From: Kappaphycus alvarezii | Lineage: Eukaryota; Rhodophyta; Florideophyceae; Gigartinales; Solieriaceae | Assembly: GCA_002205965.3 (NCBI GenBank) | Contig: NADL03000022.1 | Location: forward strand, 62,001-126,000 | Length of the DNA: 64,000 nt | Reading direction: 5' to 3' | Shown here: piece by piece, positions 47,837-60,612 of the stretch | How the letters are laid out: each line of letters opens with the position of its first letter | Position numbering within the stretch: position 1 is the stretch's first letter | Notes under the pieces: generated by a model | What the model saw: the letters and a program-made list of their open reading frames with translations, nothing else | Told to the model about the DNA's origin: nothing | Databases searched by the model: none | Made by a program: the position numbers and the translations under genes

Positions 47837-48102
47837 TGGCTGCTATTGTAATACTGCATCAAACGATTAGGAAAGAAAGTGATTGAATAAAATTAGTTTA
47901 CTGACGAGAAGCGCGGACTATGTGGCGTGTGCAGATCTATGAATTCGACGGAATCGGACGTAGCAAAACTTCTCGGTTGTTTCCCTCTGCTCGTTTGGCG
48001 TACGGCGTTTCCAGTGTATATTTAACACCACAAAGGTGCGTCACACTGCTCTCAAGATGCAGCGTGTAATTATTCATTACAGTTATTACAGTGAAATTAA
48101 CA
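47837..48102 (-). repeat. Left LTR (3' LTR) of the copia-like element; uninterrupted copy
   Basis: About 266 bp, matching 54,681-54,885 in its left three quarters and 60,528-60,612 in its right quarter. Shared landmarks are GTTTACTGACGA, GACGGAATCGGACGTAGCAA, TCGGTTGTTTCCCTCT in this copy, and AAAGGTGCG with CACACTGCT. It preserves the unoccupied version of the site used by the nested DNA transposon. Confidence 0.85.
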
Positions 48103-49033: not shown

Positions 49034-52000
49034 ACCTCGAACATGAAACCGGCAAATCTCGGTAGGTAGGCTGGATTAGTCAAACTCTTGGGCTAAAAAT
49101 GGCATTACGAAAATCAGTCATGCGAAAATAATTACACAATCACAAGAAGGATAAAGGCATTTGACATGTTCGGTTGTCTGAAATCAGGTTTGTGGCTAGT
49201 GCGACTTGTGAGTACCACGGATCGGAGAGTTGACCACTGCATATAGGTCAATGCAGACTACGGAGTAATTCTAGATTCATCACATTAATTTACTATTCGC
49301 TTTTGTTCGGATAGTCCCCTGATATGCGGTGGACCTGTTATTTCAAACCTTGAGTTGGCAGAAGTTAGAGAGAGAGTAGAGCAAAATAAATGTGAAAAGT
49401 GATACTGCACAAGTTACATCCTCAGACCTTAGTATTCACTGCTCTTATACGATGTTAAGTTCCCCAGTTGACATAACATTTCTCAGAATCGCTTGACTAA
49501 TTATCTTAGTCAAGCCATGGGCAATGATTTTGTGGCTTCGGACGAATCCAATATCAGCAATCACTCTATGCCGGAAAATTCTCTGATGGTTGAGATATAT
49601 AACATTGTACGCTTTTTGAAGTACGAGATCCCTTTGAGATCACATCGAACAATCTTTTGCTGCTTGTAAACAACTACACAGGTACAGGTTTTCGCAGGAC
49701 TGTCGCGAAATCCTCCGAGAGGGAAACAGCCACGTCGAACATATCGCTAAGGCAATAAACTCACCAGACATCGCCGATCGCGTGACGCGTCTTGACTTGT
49801 AGTATTTGAAGACAACAGGAGTAACTCTTTCATTCTCATCTCGGAGAAAGACAATATAACCCAACTGGGAAGACATCGGCGTTATTCGGGAGCAAAGAGT
49901 CTAAAAATCTGAAATTCTCAATGAGTACTTGCTTAACTTGCAAATTTTGAGCTTAATCCTGTGTTAGACGGTGTACTTGATACCTCGGTCAATCCTTCGT
50001 AAGACGGCATTAATTTGCTCATTACAAATTTCTTCCGTTACCTGCGCCATTTGCGATATCTCGAACAAAAAGTCGGGGGCGAGTTTATTAACCAGGTCAG
50101 TTTCATGCGCAATGACCGAAGGTTGTTGAAAAGAGGCATCTGGTGGAATGCATTCCAGGTTTCTTGAGTAAGCGTTTTGATCAATTACATAATTGCCATC
50201 CTTATCCCGACCGAGTACGAAACTTGTGAATTTTGTCGGGGGTTGAAGACAATCTGCCATCTCAAAGCGCTTTTTGTCCTCTTTGAAACCTTTTTGAAGT
50301 TCTCGCTTTCACATCGTACCAAATCGTCAAGGTAATTCTCGTTAAGCACCTCCAGTAGCCCATCAGCAATAAGATAGTACATATCTGGGTCTGTTTTCAA
50401 TTGATTTACACCTAGGTCGTGGTGATTATGCTTATACAACGTTTCTTGCCATAAATCACCCGCATTGCACAGGCCATAAACGGGAGGAAGCAGCTGAAGG
50501 CATTGCTCGGGCTCCAGTTCAAATTCTGCCACAGGCTTATCAATAAATAACTGTCGAGCAAGTGGCTCATCGGACTGCAAGTAGGCTTTTGTTAAGCCTG
50601 GTGTTCAGAAATCCCAACCAATGGCAGCAGCGAGAGCAAGCAATAGGCGGACAGGCTGTGGTTGAAGTGTTGAGGATGAGCGCACCATGAACTAATTCAA
50701 TTTATCCCTCTATACCCCTTTTACATATCCTCCTTTCCTTTTTACCTTTTGCTAGATGGCGAGCACAAATCGTCCCGGTAATACTTTAGGGCACTATGAA
50801 CTACTTCAATTTATTCCTCTTTCCCCCTGTTACGTATCCTTCCTTTCCTTTTACCTTTTACTTGATGGCGAGCACAAATCGTCCCGGTAATACTTTACCA
50901 TCCAGCGGTATATCCTTCTTAAGGATGATCTTAAATATCACACGTTCTATAAGTCCACGAATCTTCTTGCCCTTGGCCTCCTCATCTTCAGACTTCTAGC
51001 ACGATCATCACACTCATCAATAATCTCAGTCGCAAAATATATATGTGGCTTGTCCGGGGACCGGAACTGCGATAAACCATTTTCAAGCTCGATAATAAAT
51101 GCTAGAGATAGTAGCTCTGGGGTATAATAAGGTTACACCTGCGCAATTTTGAACGGAAGAGCTAGGTTGATAGATTGATCACAAAAAAAACCCAATTTCC
51201 GTTCGCGCTCTACACTTTGAATGGGTTTAACCACTCACCTATGCGATTATTGAGTTTTTTCCCACCATTCAAGCCTCTTGTCACCATGCTGATATCTGCG
51301 ATCACAAGACGGTGGCATTGCGTGACGGAAAGCGAGATGCAACTTGAGATCTGCCATCTGGCGTTCCCGATCTTTGAGAGCCACCTGAGCAACTTCTGCT
51401 CTTTGAGCAAGGGTGTGGCGACTGGGACGAGTTTCAGATGGAAGGGAAATTTGGGGAAAACTTTAGCTGATTGATCGAGACCTTCTGGTCCCAAATTGTC
51501 GTTCATAGCCTTCACAACACAGGCAAGAGCAAGATTTTTATCGACATGTGGTTGCGATACCATTATCTTGCGGGATTTCGTCCGGAGCGGTTCTTGATAT
51601 CTCTCTCCGCGGCCTATAATTGAATGAGGTTCTACCCAGTCTGTCCTATTTTGACATCGGATAGACGCGCTAGGTGCAAGAACTTGTCTCCAAATTGGGA
51701 TCCTGATCAGTGATGATCTTGTTTGGGAATCCAGTGTAAACGGATCCTAGAACTCAATAACAGTGGTCCAAGCATGTTCAGTAGACAGGCTCGGCGGGAA
51801 TCTAACTGCGTTAAATCTTTTTTCCTCATCAACATTGTGGAGGACCGGCTCGTTGTCGATGTAAATGATTTCCATAAAAATGCATTCATTACATCGGACT
51901 TTTTCAGTACCGAGAGTAACTCTAAAACATATCGGGGCGCGCTAGATTATCTGGCACGGATGGCATTTTTTAGAAAATCCTGCATTTTATTTCGGATTTT

Positions 52001-54680: not shown

Positions 54681-54885
54681 TGACCACTATTGTAAGACTG
54701 CACAATCACACCTAGGTATCAACCCCGTAAGAGAGAAATTGTGTGAATATAATTCGTTTACTGACGACAAGTGCAGAAGATGTGGTGATTGCAGAGCTAC
54801 GGATTTGACGGAATCGGACGTAGCAAAAATTCCCGGTTGTTTCCCTCTCTTTTGTTGGCGTCCGGCGTCGCCAGTAGATATATAC
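54681..54885 (-). repeat. Right LTR (5' LTR), left portion before the nested transposon
   Basis: This begins TGACCACTATTGTAAGACTG, aligned with the left LTR start at 47,837. It continues through GTTTACTGACGA and GACGGAATCGGACGTAGCAA to AGATATATAC at 54,876-54,885, where the nested transposon begins. Confidence 0.85.
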
Positions 54886-54957
54886 CTAATGCCTGGACCG
54901 TTCAAATGATAGATCTTAGCCCATTGTCGGCCACGCCGGGGTGAAGGCATGCAATGC

Positions 54958-54985
54958 CCGTACGTTCGATTAATCGAACGTACGG
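54958..54985. repeat. Perfect 28-bp palindrome in the left subterminal region
   Basis: CCGTACGTTCGATT is followed immediately by its exact reverse complement. The core GTTCGATT/AATCGAAC recurs imperfectly near the right end (60,233-60,248 and 60,494-60,509; a variant at 60,207-60,222). It is a likely transposase-binding or hairpin-forming site. Confidence 0.9.
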
Positions 54986-55719
54986 AAGGTTTTTTTTCGC
55001 CTCCATTGGAGTCCCCATAACTCCGGTTCTATACCGCTTCGAATAAAAAAATTACCGCCCTCATGTTGCCAACACCACTCTCTACCCCACCTACTTTTCT
55101 GTCGTCCCCCCTGCAGTACTTTTCACATGAGCGGTCACAAAGTCCCCCTTCTTCGAGACTTTCCCGATCTCCCCACTCCTGATACGCTCCGATCCCGACG
55201 TCATTCCCGGCACCACCACCCTTCTACCTTAGTCTCCTACTCTCTGCTCCTACTCCAGTGGGTGGCTGTGGTTTGCTGCTAACGCTGCAATTGTCGTTTT
55301 GATTGCTCACACACCCTTTCAATACCCCTTCTCTCCCCCTCTTACTCACGTCGCGTTTTCGTCATTTCTTTGTGTGTTGCAATGCTCTGCTACCGTGGTA
55401 CAAATCTCACACACTGCGCTTCAAATCTCCACCTCACTGGAAACGCATCCCACTGTCACCAAAAGACATTTGGTTGAAAATTGCTGGATCCATCGGCTAT
55501 CATCGTCACCGTCTCCACTCCCCCACTTCGCCGGAAAGCTCTCTCCCCCCTTTGTGGTCTCATACAAGTCAGCTTTGGAACGTTCCCTGCCTCGTTCGAG
55601 TGACTGGAACATGTACTCCCAGGAAACATGTCGAATCCGTTTCGGACATTGCCCGACGTCTAACATGAAGGGAATGCCGGGGCGCCTTTATTCTCTGTTA
55701 TTACGGCGAGTCCAGGATG

Positions 55720-58695
55720 CTTTGAATACTAACCCGTTCCTTTTTCGCACTCGACAGCACTGCCACCTGCATTTCCAAATGGCCAACCAAGGAATCAGTC
55801 TCCTGCTCCTGGGCGACGTGGCGGACGACAGGGAACTCGTGGCAGTGGAAGGGGACGTGGTCGGGGTGGGGGTGGAAGCGGGAGGACCAAACAAAAAGAT
55901 CCATCATCAGGATGGAAGATCCGGAAGCCTCCACCTACTGTATTCATGTCGGAGAATGATTTTAAGAAGAAATTCTTCGCCAATCGTGCCCGCAACTTTG
56001 CAATGTCCGTTGCAACCCGGCTGGAAGTTGAGCTTCGCTCACCCGATAAGTAGCTGAGTCGATCTTCGGTGTTTTTTCTTTTTGTACGGGACACACTAAA
56101 CAATCTAGCGGGTTGGCTTGACGCATCTTTGAAATTTTCTGTCAAAAACAATTACAGTTCTGTTGATGAAGTATCTATGTTTATGTACTTACGCGTGCAC
56201 ATGGTAGCATGCAGTACTCGCCTTAGCACAGATCACGTTATCGTAATGCTCTCCGCATATAGTATACAATGTCGTATAATCCGACAGGTTGTGGGTTTGA
56301 CGAGGGCCGTGTATGGATGTCCCTGAGGGACAGTACAGTCCTCATGGCGGAATTCGAGCAGATCTGTTCTAAAGTCTCCAAACAGATTTTTTTCGACCCT
56401 GCAAAAGGGCTTTACACTTCGAATGATGACTTATTTGGTTCCCGCTCGAAGGAAATTCAAGTTAAAAAACTCAGTAACCGCAAGGCTGAAGGCGAGAGGT
56501 CCAGTGCTGACGCTTTTTCCGATGAATTCTTTCGTGGTGTAATACAAATAAGGTTTCGTTGTCGTGGTGAAAGTGTGGAGCAGGTGTTGCGTCGTGTTAC
56601 TGAATTGGTAGCGGAAGGAAGAGGGGATAGAGTTATGACTGGAATGGGGACAATGGACTGAGGGTTTGCCAGCCCTAAAGAGGTGGAAGAGCTCATGAGT
56701 GTTGGTGTCAGCGTCCTAGGGGTGGTTGAGAATTAATACAACAGTTACCACCCGTTCGCGGCGTTATCAAATTTGAAACCGAAGAAAACACCAGACAGTA
56801 CCGGGGGCAATACCGATGAGGACATCAGCAGTACTAATGAAGAAAGTGACACTGAGAAGGATAATGAATAATTCGTCGGGTTGCAACGTGACAGGCCGGA
56901 GGCATTCATCGTTGACAACCACCCTGATATGAGCCCAGGTATGTGTTCTATGCTAGACGAAGAGTGGTAGGGCGAAGTATGAGGAAGACGGATCTGCATT
57001 CTGTGGCCGTACAGGGGTGTGGAAAAAAAACAAATGTATTACGTTTCTTACATTCAGTACTGCCTCCATTCGGTGACAGCTTCTCCTGTTGGCTGGGGGT
57101 GCCCGCAACTATCACCACAGGAAACTGAATTCTTAAGCATGCATTTGATTTATCAACACAATGCAGTAGCAGGCAAGAGCTGAAGCATTATCTTTTTAGA
57201 ACTTCTTCATCGTCACCTTTAAACAGAGGACTGCGGATTGGTTTCTCCTGTGCCAATTTAAAATTGCAGCTACGCTTGCAGTCAGGGTTTTCCGTAAAAG
57301 TTCTACGGTCTGTTCTTTTTTTGGAGTGGCATCGTCCGAAAATACATTCTGTGATTTCAAGGACATTGCTACAGATTTAATTGATAACTGGTTTGGTCGA
57401 AATCGAGCTACGGAGGACATGAAGCGAGGTACCGTGAACGAGTTCACACTGATTAACGCACTAATTCAAGACGAAGAAGTGGTAGAATTTCTCAATGTGG
57501 TTTAATTGGTGGGGTTGGAATGTGAGTGGATAGCTGCGTCACCTGACGTTTTTTGCACCATCAATACATAATCTGTAAAAGGGACGCCAGAGTAAGCACC
57601 CAGTGCTGTTCATGCTGTGGTTGAAATTAAAACCAGAGTAGGAAGCTCGACAGTAAGCCAGGCACTCCCTCATGCAAGTTTGGATTATGACTTTGTGAAC
57701 ATGGGCAATGCTAGGTCTAAGATGTTGGTTCCGTTGGATCATCAGTGGCAGATACTCCACCAGTGTATTTGCACAAGGTTCAGGTATGCAGTGTACGTTT
57801 GTGCTGCGTAGAGTCAAATTTTGTATAAGGTATTGCTTTATGTCAGCGAAGACATTCACGAAGGAGGGATGATGGTCATGACTGTGTATTTTGCTCCTCA
57901 CTTTGAGTGTATGTACGGGAACCCTTTGAGGTTCCAGAAGAGGTGGACAAGCAGCAATTGAAGATTTTAAAATCGCACTACTCCCTATTTAAGGAGATGT
58001 ACAGCATCTCGAAGAGTAATGGGCCTGTTAGTCTAATCCAGCTATTTAAACACAGCTCGCAAACGCTATACAGTACTTTGAAGGGCGGCGTGGACTCCTC
58101 AGTTCAAATGCGTTCGTTTTTAAAGAGCCCTAGTACGCGTTTAAAGTGGGTAACTAGGATTCTATCAGATGTTCTGTAAAAAATACTGCAGAATGCGTTT
58201 ACGGCCTGGCGCATTGGAAGTCGTCGTGAGCTTTTGCAATCAAGCGGAATTTAAGGATTTGAACAGCTTCGGCGATAGTTTAAATAACACGCAATGCTTG
58301 CGGACTTTGTAATGGACGTTGCAATAGATCTCCTTCGGGATGTCAAGCGGCACAAGGAACAGGCTGATGGTGACGAACATTCTTTGTTAGTTCCGTCGGC
58401 GAAAGAGAAGCTTCTCGGTGAATCTGCAGCTAAGCGTAAGCGGAAAAGATTAACATTCTCTAATTCAGAGGACAGGGCTACTCTACGACTACATGTGAAG
58501 GCCCATCATGTTGTACACATGAGAATTCAACAGTATTGCGCGATATGCGGCGTCAGTCACGGGAACAGGGTGAGGATGCATCGTGTGAACATCAGGTGTG
58601 ACGCCTGTAACGTACATCTTTGCCACAAAATAAGGGAGGGTTTCCGGCAGTCATGCTTGGATATGCACTCTGTAAGGAGGTTCAAGAGAAGATAA
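55720..58695 (+). CDS. DDE transposase with internal YqaJ-type PD-(D/E)XK nuclease and Cys-rich C-terminus
   Basis: The order below is seen across several frames. (1) RG-rich disordered segment (SGRGRGRGGGGSGRTKQK, about 55,830-55,900), then SENDFKKKFFANRARNFA. (2) Transposase-like core from about 56,160: SVDEVSMFMYLRVHM, NDDLFGSRSKEIQVKKLSNR near 56,420 with a likely first catalytic Asp, ADAFSDEFFRGVIQIRFRCR, VEELMSVGVSVLGVVEN, FIVDNHPDMSPG, NVLRFLHSVLPPFGDSF. (3) Nuclease: TVNEFTLINALIQDEEVVEF near 57,435, WIAASPDVFCTIN (Asp at 57,545), VVEIKTRVGS (Glu 57,623, Lys 57,629), HQWQILHQCICT near 57,740. (4) RLKWVTRILSDVL near 58,150. (5) C-x2-C ... C-x2-C-x4-C ... C-x3-H near 58,537-58,670, like the piggyBac cysteine-rich domain. 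Frame changes are frequent. A shorter ATG at 55,127 and upstream exons are possible. Confidence 0.65.
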
Positions 58696-58699
58696 ATAC

Positions 58700-60110
58700 A
58701 GATCGTTAAGCGGGCAAAGTCCGTAAATCAACATCAAGGCAGGAAAAGTGATGTTGAGAGTGCTGAGAAAGTGCACAACAAATATTCTGATGGCGACCAT
58801 CCAGGTGAGGCGTTGGGATGGCCGGATGATGATCTCAGTGCTGAGGATGACGGAGATATCGAATTAGATGGAATACTTGCGGAGAGGGTGAGGAGGACAT
58901 TGCGGCGCGCCCTGAGTTTAGGGGGAGCAGGAATGATGACGCGGTGAGGTGGGAAGATGCTGAATCTAGCGGGGAGGATGACGGCGAAAATATGTTGGGC
59001 GGTAATGTTACAATAGAGGAGGGGGAGCACATAGTTCTTCGCCGGCTGCTTGGGGTGATAGAAGAAGCCTGAGTGAAAAATACTGAGGTAATTGCGGAAG
59101 ATGGGGTCCGTAAATTCAAGTCAAAAGGAAAGCCAAAGAGGAAGATCACAAAGCCTTTTGGTTGGGAGTCGTGTAGGGACTCGGAGCTCGAGATTGAAAT
59201 GGGAATCGCTCCCGCAGAGTGAGGGGTTGCAGTAGGGTCTGGACAAGAAGAGGGAATAGCCGGGATTAGGAAGGAAGCGGAGACTCCAGTGGAGCTAAAG
59301 AGAACAATTATGGATGCTTCTGCACAAATAAATGAGCCACGATCGGGGACGCACGATAATGGGTTGGTAGGCTCTGTTGATAAACGAGCTGGAGTCGTCG
59401 GGAGAGATGAGAGAAGGGAGAGTAGAGCAGCAACACAAGGCGGTGGGGGAGGTAGAGGTGGGCAGGAGAGCAAAGCGGCCGCATCAAACGTTGGGAGGGG
59501 TGCAAATGGAGAGGGGACAGCGGCAAAATCGAGAGTTGGGAGGAGTGGTAACGGGGAGAAGATAGCGGCAAAATCAGGCTTTTGGGGAGATGAAAGTGGG
59601 CAGGAGAGGAGAGCGAAGGCGGCAGGCGTTGGGGGAAGTGGTAGTGGGGAGTTAAGCGCGACAAAATCGGGCTCTGGGGGATGCGGTAGTGGGGATACAA
59701 GAGAGCCATCCGGATGCTTGTGTGAAGATGGAAGTGGGGAGAGGACAGGGGCAACATCGGGCGTGGGGGTAGATGGGAATGGGGAAGTGAGAGCTGCAGC
59801 AGTTTGGCGAAGTTGGAGAATGGAGCAAAGGGCGTCAATATCGTGCTTTGGGGGAAGGGAGAATGGGGAAAGCAGAGTCGCAGCAGCAGGTGCCGGAGGA
59901 GGTGGGAGAGGGGAGAGGAAAACGCCACATGCGCGTGTCGTGGGAGGCGGCGAAGGGGAGAGGCCCGCAGCAACATCGGGGGTTGAGGGGTGGGAGTACA
60001 TCTGCAGCGTGTAGTGTTGTGAGAGGAGAGAGTCGGGAGGGTCTTCGGTTTCAAGTGGGAGGGAACCTGGTAAAAAGAAGCGGTCAAGGAGGGTCAAAGT
60101 CATGCCAAGC
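58700..60110 (+). CDS. Second coding stretch of the TIR element: acidic region plus 19-residue repeats
   Basis: Downstream of the transposase stop at 58,695 and on the same strand. First comes an acidic segment (SDVESAEKVHNKYSDGD, WPDDDLSAEDDGDIELDGIL near 58,740-58,880), then KFKSKGKPKRKITKPFGW near 59,110. From an ATG at 59,289 an open frame of 241 codons contains about ten degenerate repeats of roughly 19 residues with the pattern (A)KSGVGGSGNGEERAA. The protein would be Gly/Ser/Glu-rich and disordered. No domain or known function. It may be the 3' part of the same transcript as the transposase or a separate accessory gene. Confidence 0.4.
59440..60010. repeat. Minisatellite-like array, unit about 57 bp
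   Basis: About ten diverged units share GGNNATGGNAATGGGGA and GCNGCAACATCGGGC-type words, spaced in multiples of 3. The array stays open on the plus strand (59,289-60,014). It also creates a long mirror-image open frame on the minus strand (58,835-60,103), as expected for G-rich/C-rich repeats. Confidence 0.7.
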
Positions 60111-60527
60111 CCCGTCCAAAAGCGGCTTCGAAGTGGGAAAATAGTGACCGCTCACAAGTAGTGTAATGTGATAGCTTTACAGTAGTTATGTTAGAGTCAA
60201 TTCGTGCGATCGAATAATCGATCAATAACCAAGTTCGATTCAACGAACTTTGTTTATGTATCGTTCGAATAATTGCACTTTTTGAGACGTTAGAAAAATC
60301 GAGCTTGGGTACTTTTCAGGGTCAATGAAAACCCTTCTAACCGTGTCTCTTTGGCTTCGTCTGCAGACTTCCCCTCGCCGTTTCTCTCCGTTTTTTTTCT
60401 GTTTTACAGAAGAAGACGTATAGTTATACCTATCCCTAGAGGGACTACGGGAAAGGTTGCCGTCTTCCACCCGAGCGAGGAAGCCGAAATTGCGTTCAAT
60501 CATTCGAACAGTACGTCCCTACATTAG

Positions 60528-60612
60528 AGATATAACCCGGCAAAGGTGCGCCACACTGCTTCCGAGATGCAGTGTGTAATTGGGCATTACAGTGAGTACA
60601 ATGAAATTGACA
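60528..60612 (-). repeat. Right LTR (5' LTR), right portion after the nested transposon
   Basis: This resumes with AGATATAAC (second copy of the target duplication), then GGCAAAGGTGCGCCACACTG, ATGCAGTGTGTAATT and ATGAAATTGACA. It matches 48,020-48,102 of the left LTR. Confidence 0.85.

Follow-up and report, generated by a model that had tools for sequence, protein, structure and literature searches.

A transposon family of Kappaphycus alvarezii with a YqaJ-type nuclease nested in a putative piggyBac-like DDE transposase

We analysed a stretch of 64,000 nucleotides from the genome of Kappaphycus alvarezii (contig NADL03000022.1, positions 62,001 to 126,000 of the forward strand), hereafter the window, and found that a dead DNA transposon, from a family of the cut-and-paste type, occupies its positions 54884-60529 on the plus strand. 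The element is 5.6 kb long and coding-like on the plus strand but broken, with its parts in different frames and with in-frame stops. The RG-rich N-terminal part of the transposase (55733-56053), with an RG-rich leader stretch at 55847-55876, resembles by eye the RG-rich start of a longer frame in a distant copy, L065. It is followed by the first half of a putative DDE core (56263-56733), with the candidate catalytic aspartates D1 in NDDLFG (56422-56439) and D2 in TMD*GFAS (56650-56673), and by a YqaJ-type nuclease domain (57200-57811). Behind the nuclease lie the second half of the core and the region after it (57907-58179), with the candidate third catalytic Asp, D3, in LKGGVD (58078-58095), and then a basic linker and a C-terminal cysteine-rich (Cys-rich) domain (58288-58695; YCAICG at 58534 to MHS at 58671), all on the plus strand. 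An initial annotation of the window had described an RG-rich leader and a Cys-rich tail, and both are present (55847-55876 and 58534-58671). The window copy is dead and ordinary; it is the family that is out of the ordinary.

We next consider the nuclease. In the window its frame contains three in-frame TAA codons before the closing TAG, and all motifs are in that one frame: QRTADWF at 57224, RGTVNE at 57425, SPD at 57539-57547, EIK at 57623-57631 and HQWQILHQ at 57740-57763. The coordinates of the last three had been given exactly in the initial annotation. The window copy matched TIGR03033 (E 0.0028) and phrog_434 (RecE-like; E 1.3e-4), both weakly, and a Pfam scan of the window pieces gave no YqaJ match for it. 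Its relatives were more informative. Of 18 members of the family compared with Pfam, 9 hit PF09588 at E ≤ 1 (best E 6.5e-9), and the YqaJ assignment proposed earlier thus held up in profile searches of the family. When the genome (336.0 Mb in 884 contigs) was searched with PF09588, four places scored above the curated cut-off (best E 8.6e-7), all of which belong to this transposon family. A profile of the nuclease from 18 copies (A1) displayed the motifs DWF..RxFxVTAT, RGxxNE, SPDG, EIKT and QILHQ. Its best match in the PDB, restricted to the SPDG stretch and weak (E 0.11), was R354 of mimivirus (5YET/5YEU), which we take to be a lambda-exonuclease-like protein; single-sequence PDB searches with family members gave nothing further. 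Five residues of the nuclease motifs were counted in the readable copies: E is present in 22/26, D in 17/22, E in 24/25, K in 22/25 and Q in 21/27. Counting against our overall reading of the family, the fold predicted for the decayed window nuclease had a confidence score (pLDDT) of 31.7, too low for a usable model. Profile and motif residues, both found at the level of the family, establish the domain as a YqaJ-type PD-(D/E)XK nuclease.

The DDE core, the nuclease and the Cys-rich tail are parts of one protein, because in L066, a distant copy from this genome, all three lie in one open frame of 948 amino acids (aa) with no stop. The order of the protein is an RG-rich N-terminus, candidate D1 and D2, the YqaJ/lambda-exonuclease-type PD-(D/E)XK nuclease, a TKGGVD segment and the Cys-rich tail. 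L065 has a 952-aa frame that contains the RG-rich start, the first half and the nuclease; its reading frame is shifted at the third-Asp motif and again close to the C-terminus. The same order was found at other loci. From the YqaJ matches we took 29 distinct loci (L001-L034, with five overlapping or tandem ones dropped), each extending only about 1.5 kb per side, and compared them with the L066 protein, which covered the nuclease in 25, D1 in 23, D2 in 24, D3 in 25 and the tail in 18. The nuclease, D1 or D2, and D3 occurred together in 19 of the 29 loci, and all five parts in 11; the other 10 were without one of nuclease, first-half Asp segment and third-Asp segment within the stretch covered. 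A DNA transposon with a YqaJ nuclease in a single transposase, as the initial annotation had proposed, is thus borne out, and the co-occurrence of both domains in a single-frame homologue, which it had suggested checking, is found in L066. That annotation had also raised the opposite idea, that the nuclease belongs to a separate mobile element or captured gene inside some transposon copies. The broken window copy, with its parts in different frames, would fit such an origin, but the continuous frame of L066, the shared arrangement at 19 loci of sequence-divergent subfamilies and the confinement of all four PF09588 places to this family make it very improbable. L066 deviates from the family majority at two catalytic positions, so that its open frame is no proof of an active enzyme.

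The 3' part of the element (58700-60150, plus strand) belongs to the subfamily of the window copy. It holds a Gly-rich open frame of 263 aa (59223-60014) and a degenerate direct repeat (59416-59785), 66% identical. In L066 the element continues for only about 320 bp beyond the transposase frame, too short a stretch for the Gly-rich frame.

Next, we examined the ends. Aligned ends of copies, and empty sites, define the transposon as CC/CTAATG...CATTAG/GG, decayed in the window to AC and AG. The ends of the family are CCCTAATG...CATTAGGG with ATAT on both flanks, and the distant copies L065 and L066 are arranged alike. In the window's family ATAT stands two bases ahead of CTAATG in 14 of 14 aligned left ends and two bases after CATTAG in 10 of 12 right ends (one has ATGT and one end is unplaced), counts that include some copies with variant CTAATG/CATTAG letters and several sites that duplicate each other. 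The commonest junction forms are ATATCC/CTAATG and CATTAG/GGATAT. On the evidence of the aligned ends and of L065 and L066, we placed the start of the element at CCCTAATG, with ATAT as flank. The true ends are thus 2 bp further out than the CTAATG boundary set by the initial annotation. In the window, the target-site duplications are at 54880-54883 and 60530-60533, both ATAT, and the terminal inverted repeats at 54884-54919 (plus strand) and 60490-60529 (minus strand).

The insertion itself is real, as had been claimed, since the window contains an empty paralogue of its site (47868 to about 48102, plus strand) about 80% identical to the left flank. Comparison of this site with the joined flanks fitted a duplication of 1-4 bp equally well, and 0 or at least 5 bp worse. 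A genome search with the joined flanks of nine copies gave at least 44 matches (40 of 1854 candidates scored), five of them across the junction. Two of these five places were read, the best-scoring one and one whose length equalled that of the query, and at both the alignment score peaked at exactly 4 bp (168 compared with at most 162; 158 compared with at most 152). These results showed that the element inserts at ATAT with a 4-bp duplication. The 4-bp figure has points against it: it rests on two of five junction places, one picked partly for its query-equal length, the other three deviate in length from the query (by 3, 7 and 27 bases), and at the empty site in the window lengths of 1 to 4 bp fit equally. 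A duplication of 9-10 bp, proposed initially, was rejected on the aligned ends and the empty sites; what had been read as such was the decayed ATATCC/GGATAT at the two ends. Apart from these results, the empty site (47868-48102) and the sequence around the transposon (54728-54884 with 60534 onward) are copies, about 80% identical, of a dispersed repeat, one of which the transposon interrupts. The left flank of the C744 copy is likewise a repeat, with many near-identical copies (C826, C781, C474, C449 and others), and most matches to it stop inside or just at ATAT. Elsewhere in the window, 50679-50897 is a tandem duplication with a unit of about 110 bp, 89% identical.

In L065, L066 and C744, three copies from two subfamilies with unrelated letters, the best palindrome within the first 60 bp occupies bp 16-33 of the left end and bp 20-37 of the right end. 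Each palindrome was singly unremarkable when compared with shuffled sequences (P 0.065-0.52), and it is the agreement of position that counts. In relatives of the window copy, the left repeat reads CCCTAATGCCTGGACCGTTCGAATAATCGAAC (C744), with an imperfect palindrome at bp 17-32, and the right one CCCTAATGTAGGGCCGTACTGTTCAAATAATCGAAC (C529), palindromic at about bp 20-37. The left end has a second, stronger palindrome near bp 70-100, which in the window is a perfect one of 28 bp (54958-54985, bp 75-102 of the end). According to PMC7351741, the palindrome bound by the Cys-rich domains of piggyBac covers bp 17-33 of the end. The end palindromes of the present family may be a parallel to it, which is suggestive and not proof.

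To place the DDE core, we compared profiles of its parts with known transposases. The profiles used 18 of 18 rows (A1), 12 of 15 (A2), 12 of 14 (A3, the segment before the nuclease), 11 of 11 (A4) and 17 of 20 (A6, the segment after the nuclease); rows L009, L011 and L012 were judged out of frame after inspection of their letters and dropped before A6. In readable subfamilies the segment after the nuclease follows the pattern KLFKHSSQTxYSxTKGGVDSSAQxRSFLKS...KW...NAFxAWR. With A6, piggyBac (6X67) was the best of 177635 PDB sequences (E 0.0068), in an alignment over its residues 438-500 that includes D447. Because the segment behind the nuclease aligns with this third catalytic Asp of piggyBac, the nuclease appears to lie between the second and third catalytic residues. 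The initial annotation had placed it between the core and the C-terminal domain; it was right that the nuclease is embedded, but not that it comes after the catalytic core. With A2 (12 copies), piggyBac (E 0.02) and piggyBat (E 0.66) were the two best PDB matches, and DDE_Tnp_1_7 was the Pfam family with the most A2 members matching at E ≤ 1 (3 of 12, best 0.011). L067, a canonical piggyBac domain encoded in this genome (PF13843 E 1.6e-65), was aligned with A6 on GGVD (P 0.0024) and with A3 on the second Asp (P 0.033), whereas the nuclease profile A1, used as a control, gave no alignment (P 0.56). The part behind the nuclease gave P 0.0083 in hhalign.

The spacing of the candidate residues was also compared. 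In L066, D2 lies 78 residues from the middle Asp of LDDDL, equal to the distance D268-D346 of piggyBac. D1 is placed by this spacing only, and the evidence for the triad otherwise consists of the alignments on D3 and D2 and the PDB match of A6. D2 and D3 are 492 residues apart in L066, compared with 101 in piggyBac. D1 is kept in 20 of 23 and D3 in 20 of 24 readable copies. The best family for the tail was zf-Tnp_2, in 2 of 11 members (best E 3e-4, below the cut-off).

Several observations weigh against a kinship of this core to piggyBac. No piggyBac match reaches a curated cut-off, and piggyBat was not in the PDB list of A6. PF13843, the profile suggested for checking the core, was not among the Pfam matches (E ≤ 10) of the L066, L065 and L002 proteins; it has at least 119 matches in the genome (116 of 951 candidates scored), and among those listed none lies less than 47 kb from a listed YqaJ place. 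A profile of the D1-D2 part had neither a piggyBac nor any other transposase match in the PDB, and in Pfam it gave DDE_5 (E 0.056) and DDE_Tnp_1 (E 0.12), in 1 of 12 members each, and no piggyBac. The longer, ragged profile A5 lost the piggyBac match altogether, and neither the longer first half nor the joined halves gave a match in hhalign. The D2 Asp is kept in only 15 of 26 copies. For the tail, C1_2 was nearly as good as zf-Tnp_2 (9e-4), and DmmA-like_C was found in more members (3 of 11).

It is thus conceivable, though we think it unlikely, that the core comes from another IS4-clan or unknown DDE superfamily, and that TKGGVD, the Cys-rich tail, the CCCTA ends and the 4-bp duplication are convergent. 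The weak sequence kinship, the ATAT target, the lack of a PF13843 match in the proteins tested and a D1-D2 part with only DDE_5 and DDE_Tnp_1 as transposase families speak in its favour. Opposed to it is the agreement of several weak signals in order and position: D2, D3, the tail, the spacing of 78, the end sequences, the duplication of 4 bp and the position of the palindromes (bp 16-33). We therefore prefer the reading, supported but weaker than the results above, that D1, D2 and TKGGVD belong to a DDE core distantly related to piggyBac. The family would be piggyBac-like and not piggyBac, given its weak sequence kinship, its ATAT in place of TTAA and the proteins unmatched by PF13843.

A position between D2 and D3 has a counterpart in other transposases. 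The insertion domain is helical in Hermes and RAG. Those of piggyBac and Tn5 are beta-stranded, according to PMC7351741, which further describes that the insertion domain of piggyBac, formed by residues 372-433, splits the RNase H fold behind its fifth strand, that the insertion domains of other DDE transposases occupy the equivalent topological position, and that the one of piggyBac contacts hairpin and target DNA. The nuclease seems to occupy the place of this insertion domain, a conclusion again supported but weaker.

The main rival for the function of the nuclease is a purely structural one, in which the fold persists chiefly to provide structure or to bind DNA, comparable to the insertion domains of Tn5 and piggyBac, and does not act as a nuclease. 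The position, the DNA contacts made there by piggyBac and the fact that the catalytic residues are not kept in every copy all agree with such a role. However, each of the five motif residues is present in 77-96% of the readable copies, whereas the commonest residue of a column reaches a mean share of 0.54. Between subfamilies, dN (nonsynonymous divergence) was 0.36-0.46 for the DDE part, 0.47-0.58 for the nuclease and 0.50-0.62 for the tail, from alignments that are rough at such distance, while dS (synonymous divergence) was saturated in every comparison but one; for the nuclease this held in four of five pairs, the exception being L018 and L022 (dN/dS 0.29). We thus regard a purely structural role as a serious rival, but a rather unlikely one. 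Both the DDE part and the nuclease appear to have been kept over long times. Within subfamilies dN/dS was 0.49-1.34, and 28 of the 40 values fell between 0.7 and 1.1, a pattern that dead copies would give, so that recent constraint is not evident.

The family is abundant in this genome. A search with the nuclease part of the window copy, in which 150 of 528 candidates were scored, gave at least 153 matches (E ≤ 0.001), and the 150 listed fell into 138 places after rows within 2 kb had been merged, so that well over a hundred sites in this genome bear traces of the family. The DNA of the element gave 64 matches, with pieces longer than 1 kb 80-88% identical. C754 and C488 are near full length as single alignments (85 and 84% identical to the window element), and several further copies were found in two or three pieces that between them contain both ends. 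There are also distant members with longer open frames, from which L065 and L066 were taken for study; these two are 96.7% identical over 4.2 kb, and the match ends at ATAT on both sides. Two copies of the element, very similar to each other, are adjacent at C458:1217702-1225806 (L041, L057, L060, L061), with identical nuclease match scores. The family is known here from one genome, and the other collections searched for relatives were IMG/VR and GTDB contigs: the window nuclease, profile A1 and the canonical piggyBac domain L067 found no relatives in IMG/VR, nor did L066 in the GTDB contigs. The titles and abstract beginnings of the literature searched contained no description of a piggyBac-like transposase with a YqaJ domain. 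As a separate observation, this genome has at least 119 canonical piggyBac-type (PF13843) domains distinct from the YqaJ family, several of them in open frames of more than 600 aa.

A mechanism of movement is suggested by the ends, the duplication of 4 bp and the distant kinship: by analogy, the element most likely moves as piggyBac does. The enzyme would nick or cut the 3' ends of the transposon, hairpins would form over the 4-nt ATAT and be reopened, and the ends would be joined to a new ATAT, leaving a donor site that can be repaired seamlessly. The Cys-rich tail may bind the palindromes just inside the ends. We are least sure of the part played by the nuclease. Its kept catalytic residues, and its position where piggyBac contacts hairpin and target DNA, suggest that it would most likely be an active second nuclease of the same protein, acting on flanking DNA at excision or at the target site. 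For example, it might resect the donor break and so lead to repair from a homologous copy; this donor-end resection is our first guess, possible rather than probable.

Collectively, these data point, with moderate confidence, to a DNA transposon that inserts at ATAT and encodes one protein with a YqaJ nuclease nested in a piggyBac-like DDE core, moving by the mechanism proposed above. With slightly less confidence, we favour a separate DDE lineage, sister to piggyBac, with a phage-type nuclease in the insertion-domain slot, two DNA-cutting centres, ATAT as target, seamless 4-bp chemistry and more than 100 places in the genome. If this is true, a transposase with a whole second nuclease in its insertion slot would be built in a new way, and it could be tested whether the transposon steers the repair of the break that it leaves behind. 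It would also suggest that seamless 4-bp chemistry is not bound to TTAA, which bears on piggyBac as a genome-engineering tool.

Among known systems, the ISL2EU (PHIS superfamily) elements are likewise eukaryotic DNA transposons associated with a YqaJ exonuclease domain, and most of their autonomous candidates encode such a protein, according to PMC4482050. There, however, YqaJ is a second, separate open reading frame, the duplication is AT and the repeats usually start with GG, whereas here the domain is nested in one frame, the duplication is ATAT and the ends start with CCC. Membership in ISL2EU was rejected on these three differences, and we give it almost no credence.

The likeness to piggyBac and piggyBat includes the TKGGVD segment with the candidate third Asp, the D1-D2 spacing of 78, the C-terminal Cys-rich domain, ends that start with CCCTA (CCCTAGAAAG in PMC7351741), a palindrome near bp 17-33 of the end and a 4-bp, self-complementary, AT-only duplication. 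The differences are the target, ATAT here and TTAA there, a nuclease of about 230 aa with linkers between D2 and D3, and a score below the PF13843 cut-off. The earlier opinion that ends and duplication do not fit piggyBac was thus mistaken about the CCCTA start and the 4-bp length and correct about ATAT.

With the YqaJ/lambda exonuclease family (PF09588, TIGR03033, phrog_434), the nuclease shares the motifs DWF..R...T, RGxxxE, SPDG, EIK and QxxHQ. To our knowledge, the known members of that family are stand-alone recombination nucleases, whereas here the domain lies inside a transposase. Mimivirus R354, in the same way, is a single viral protein without a transposase, while the nuclease described here is carried within one.

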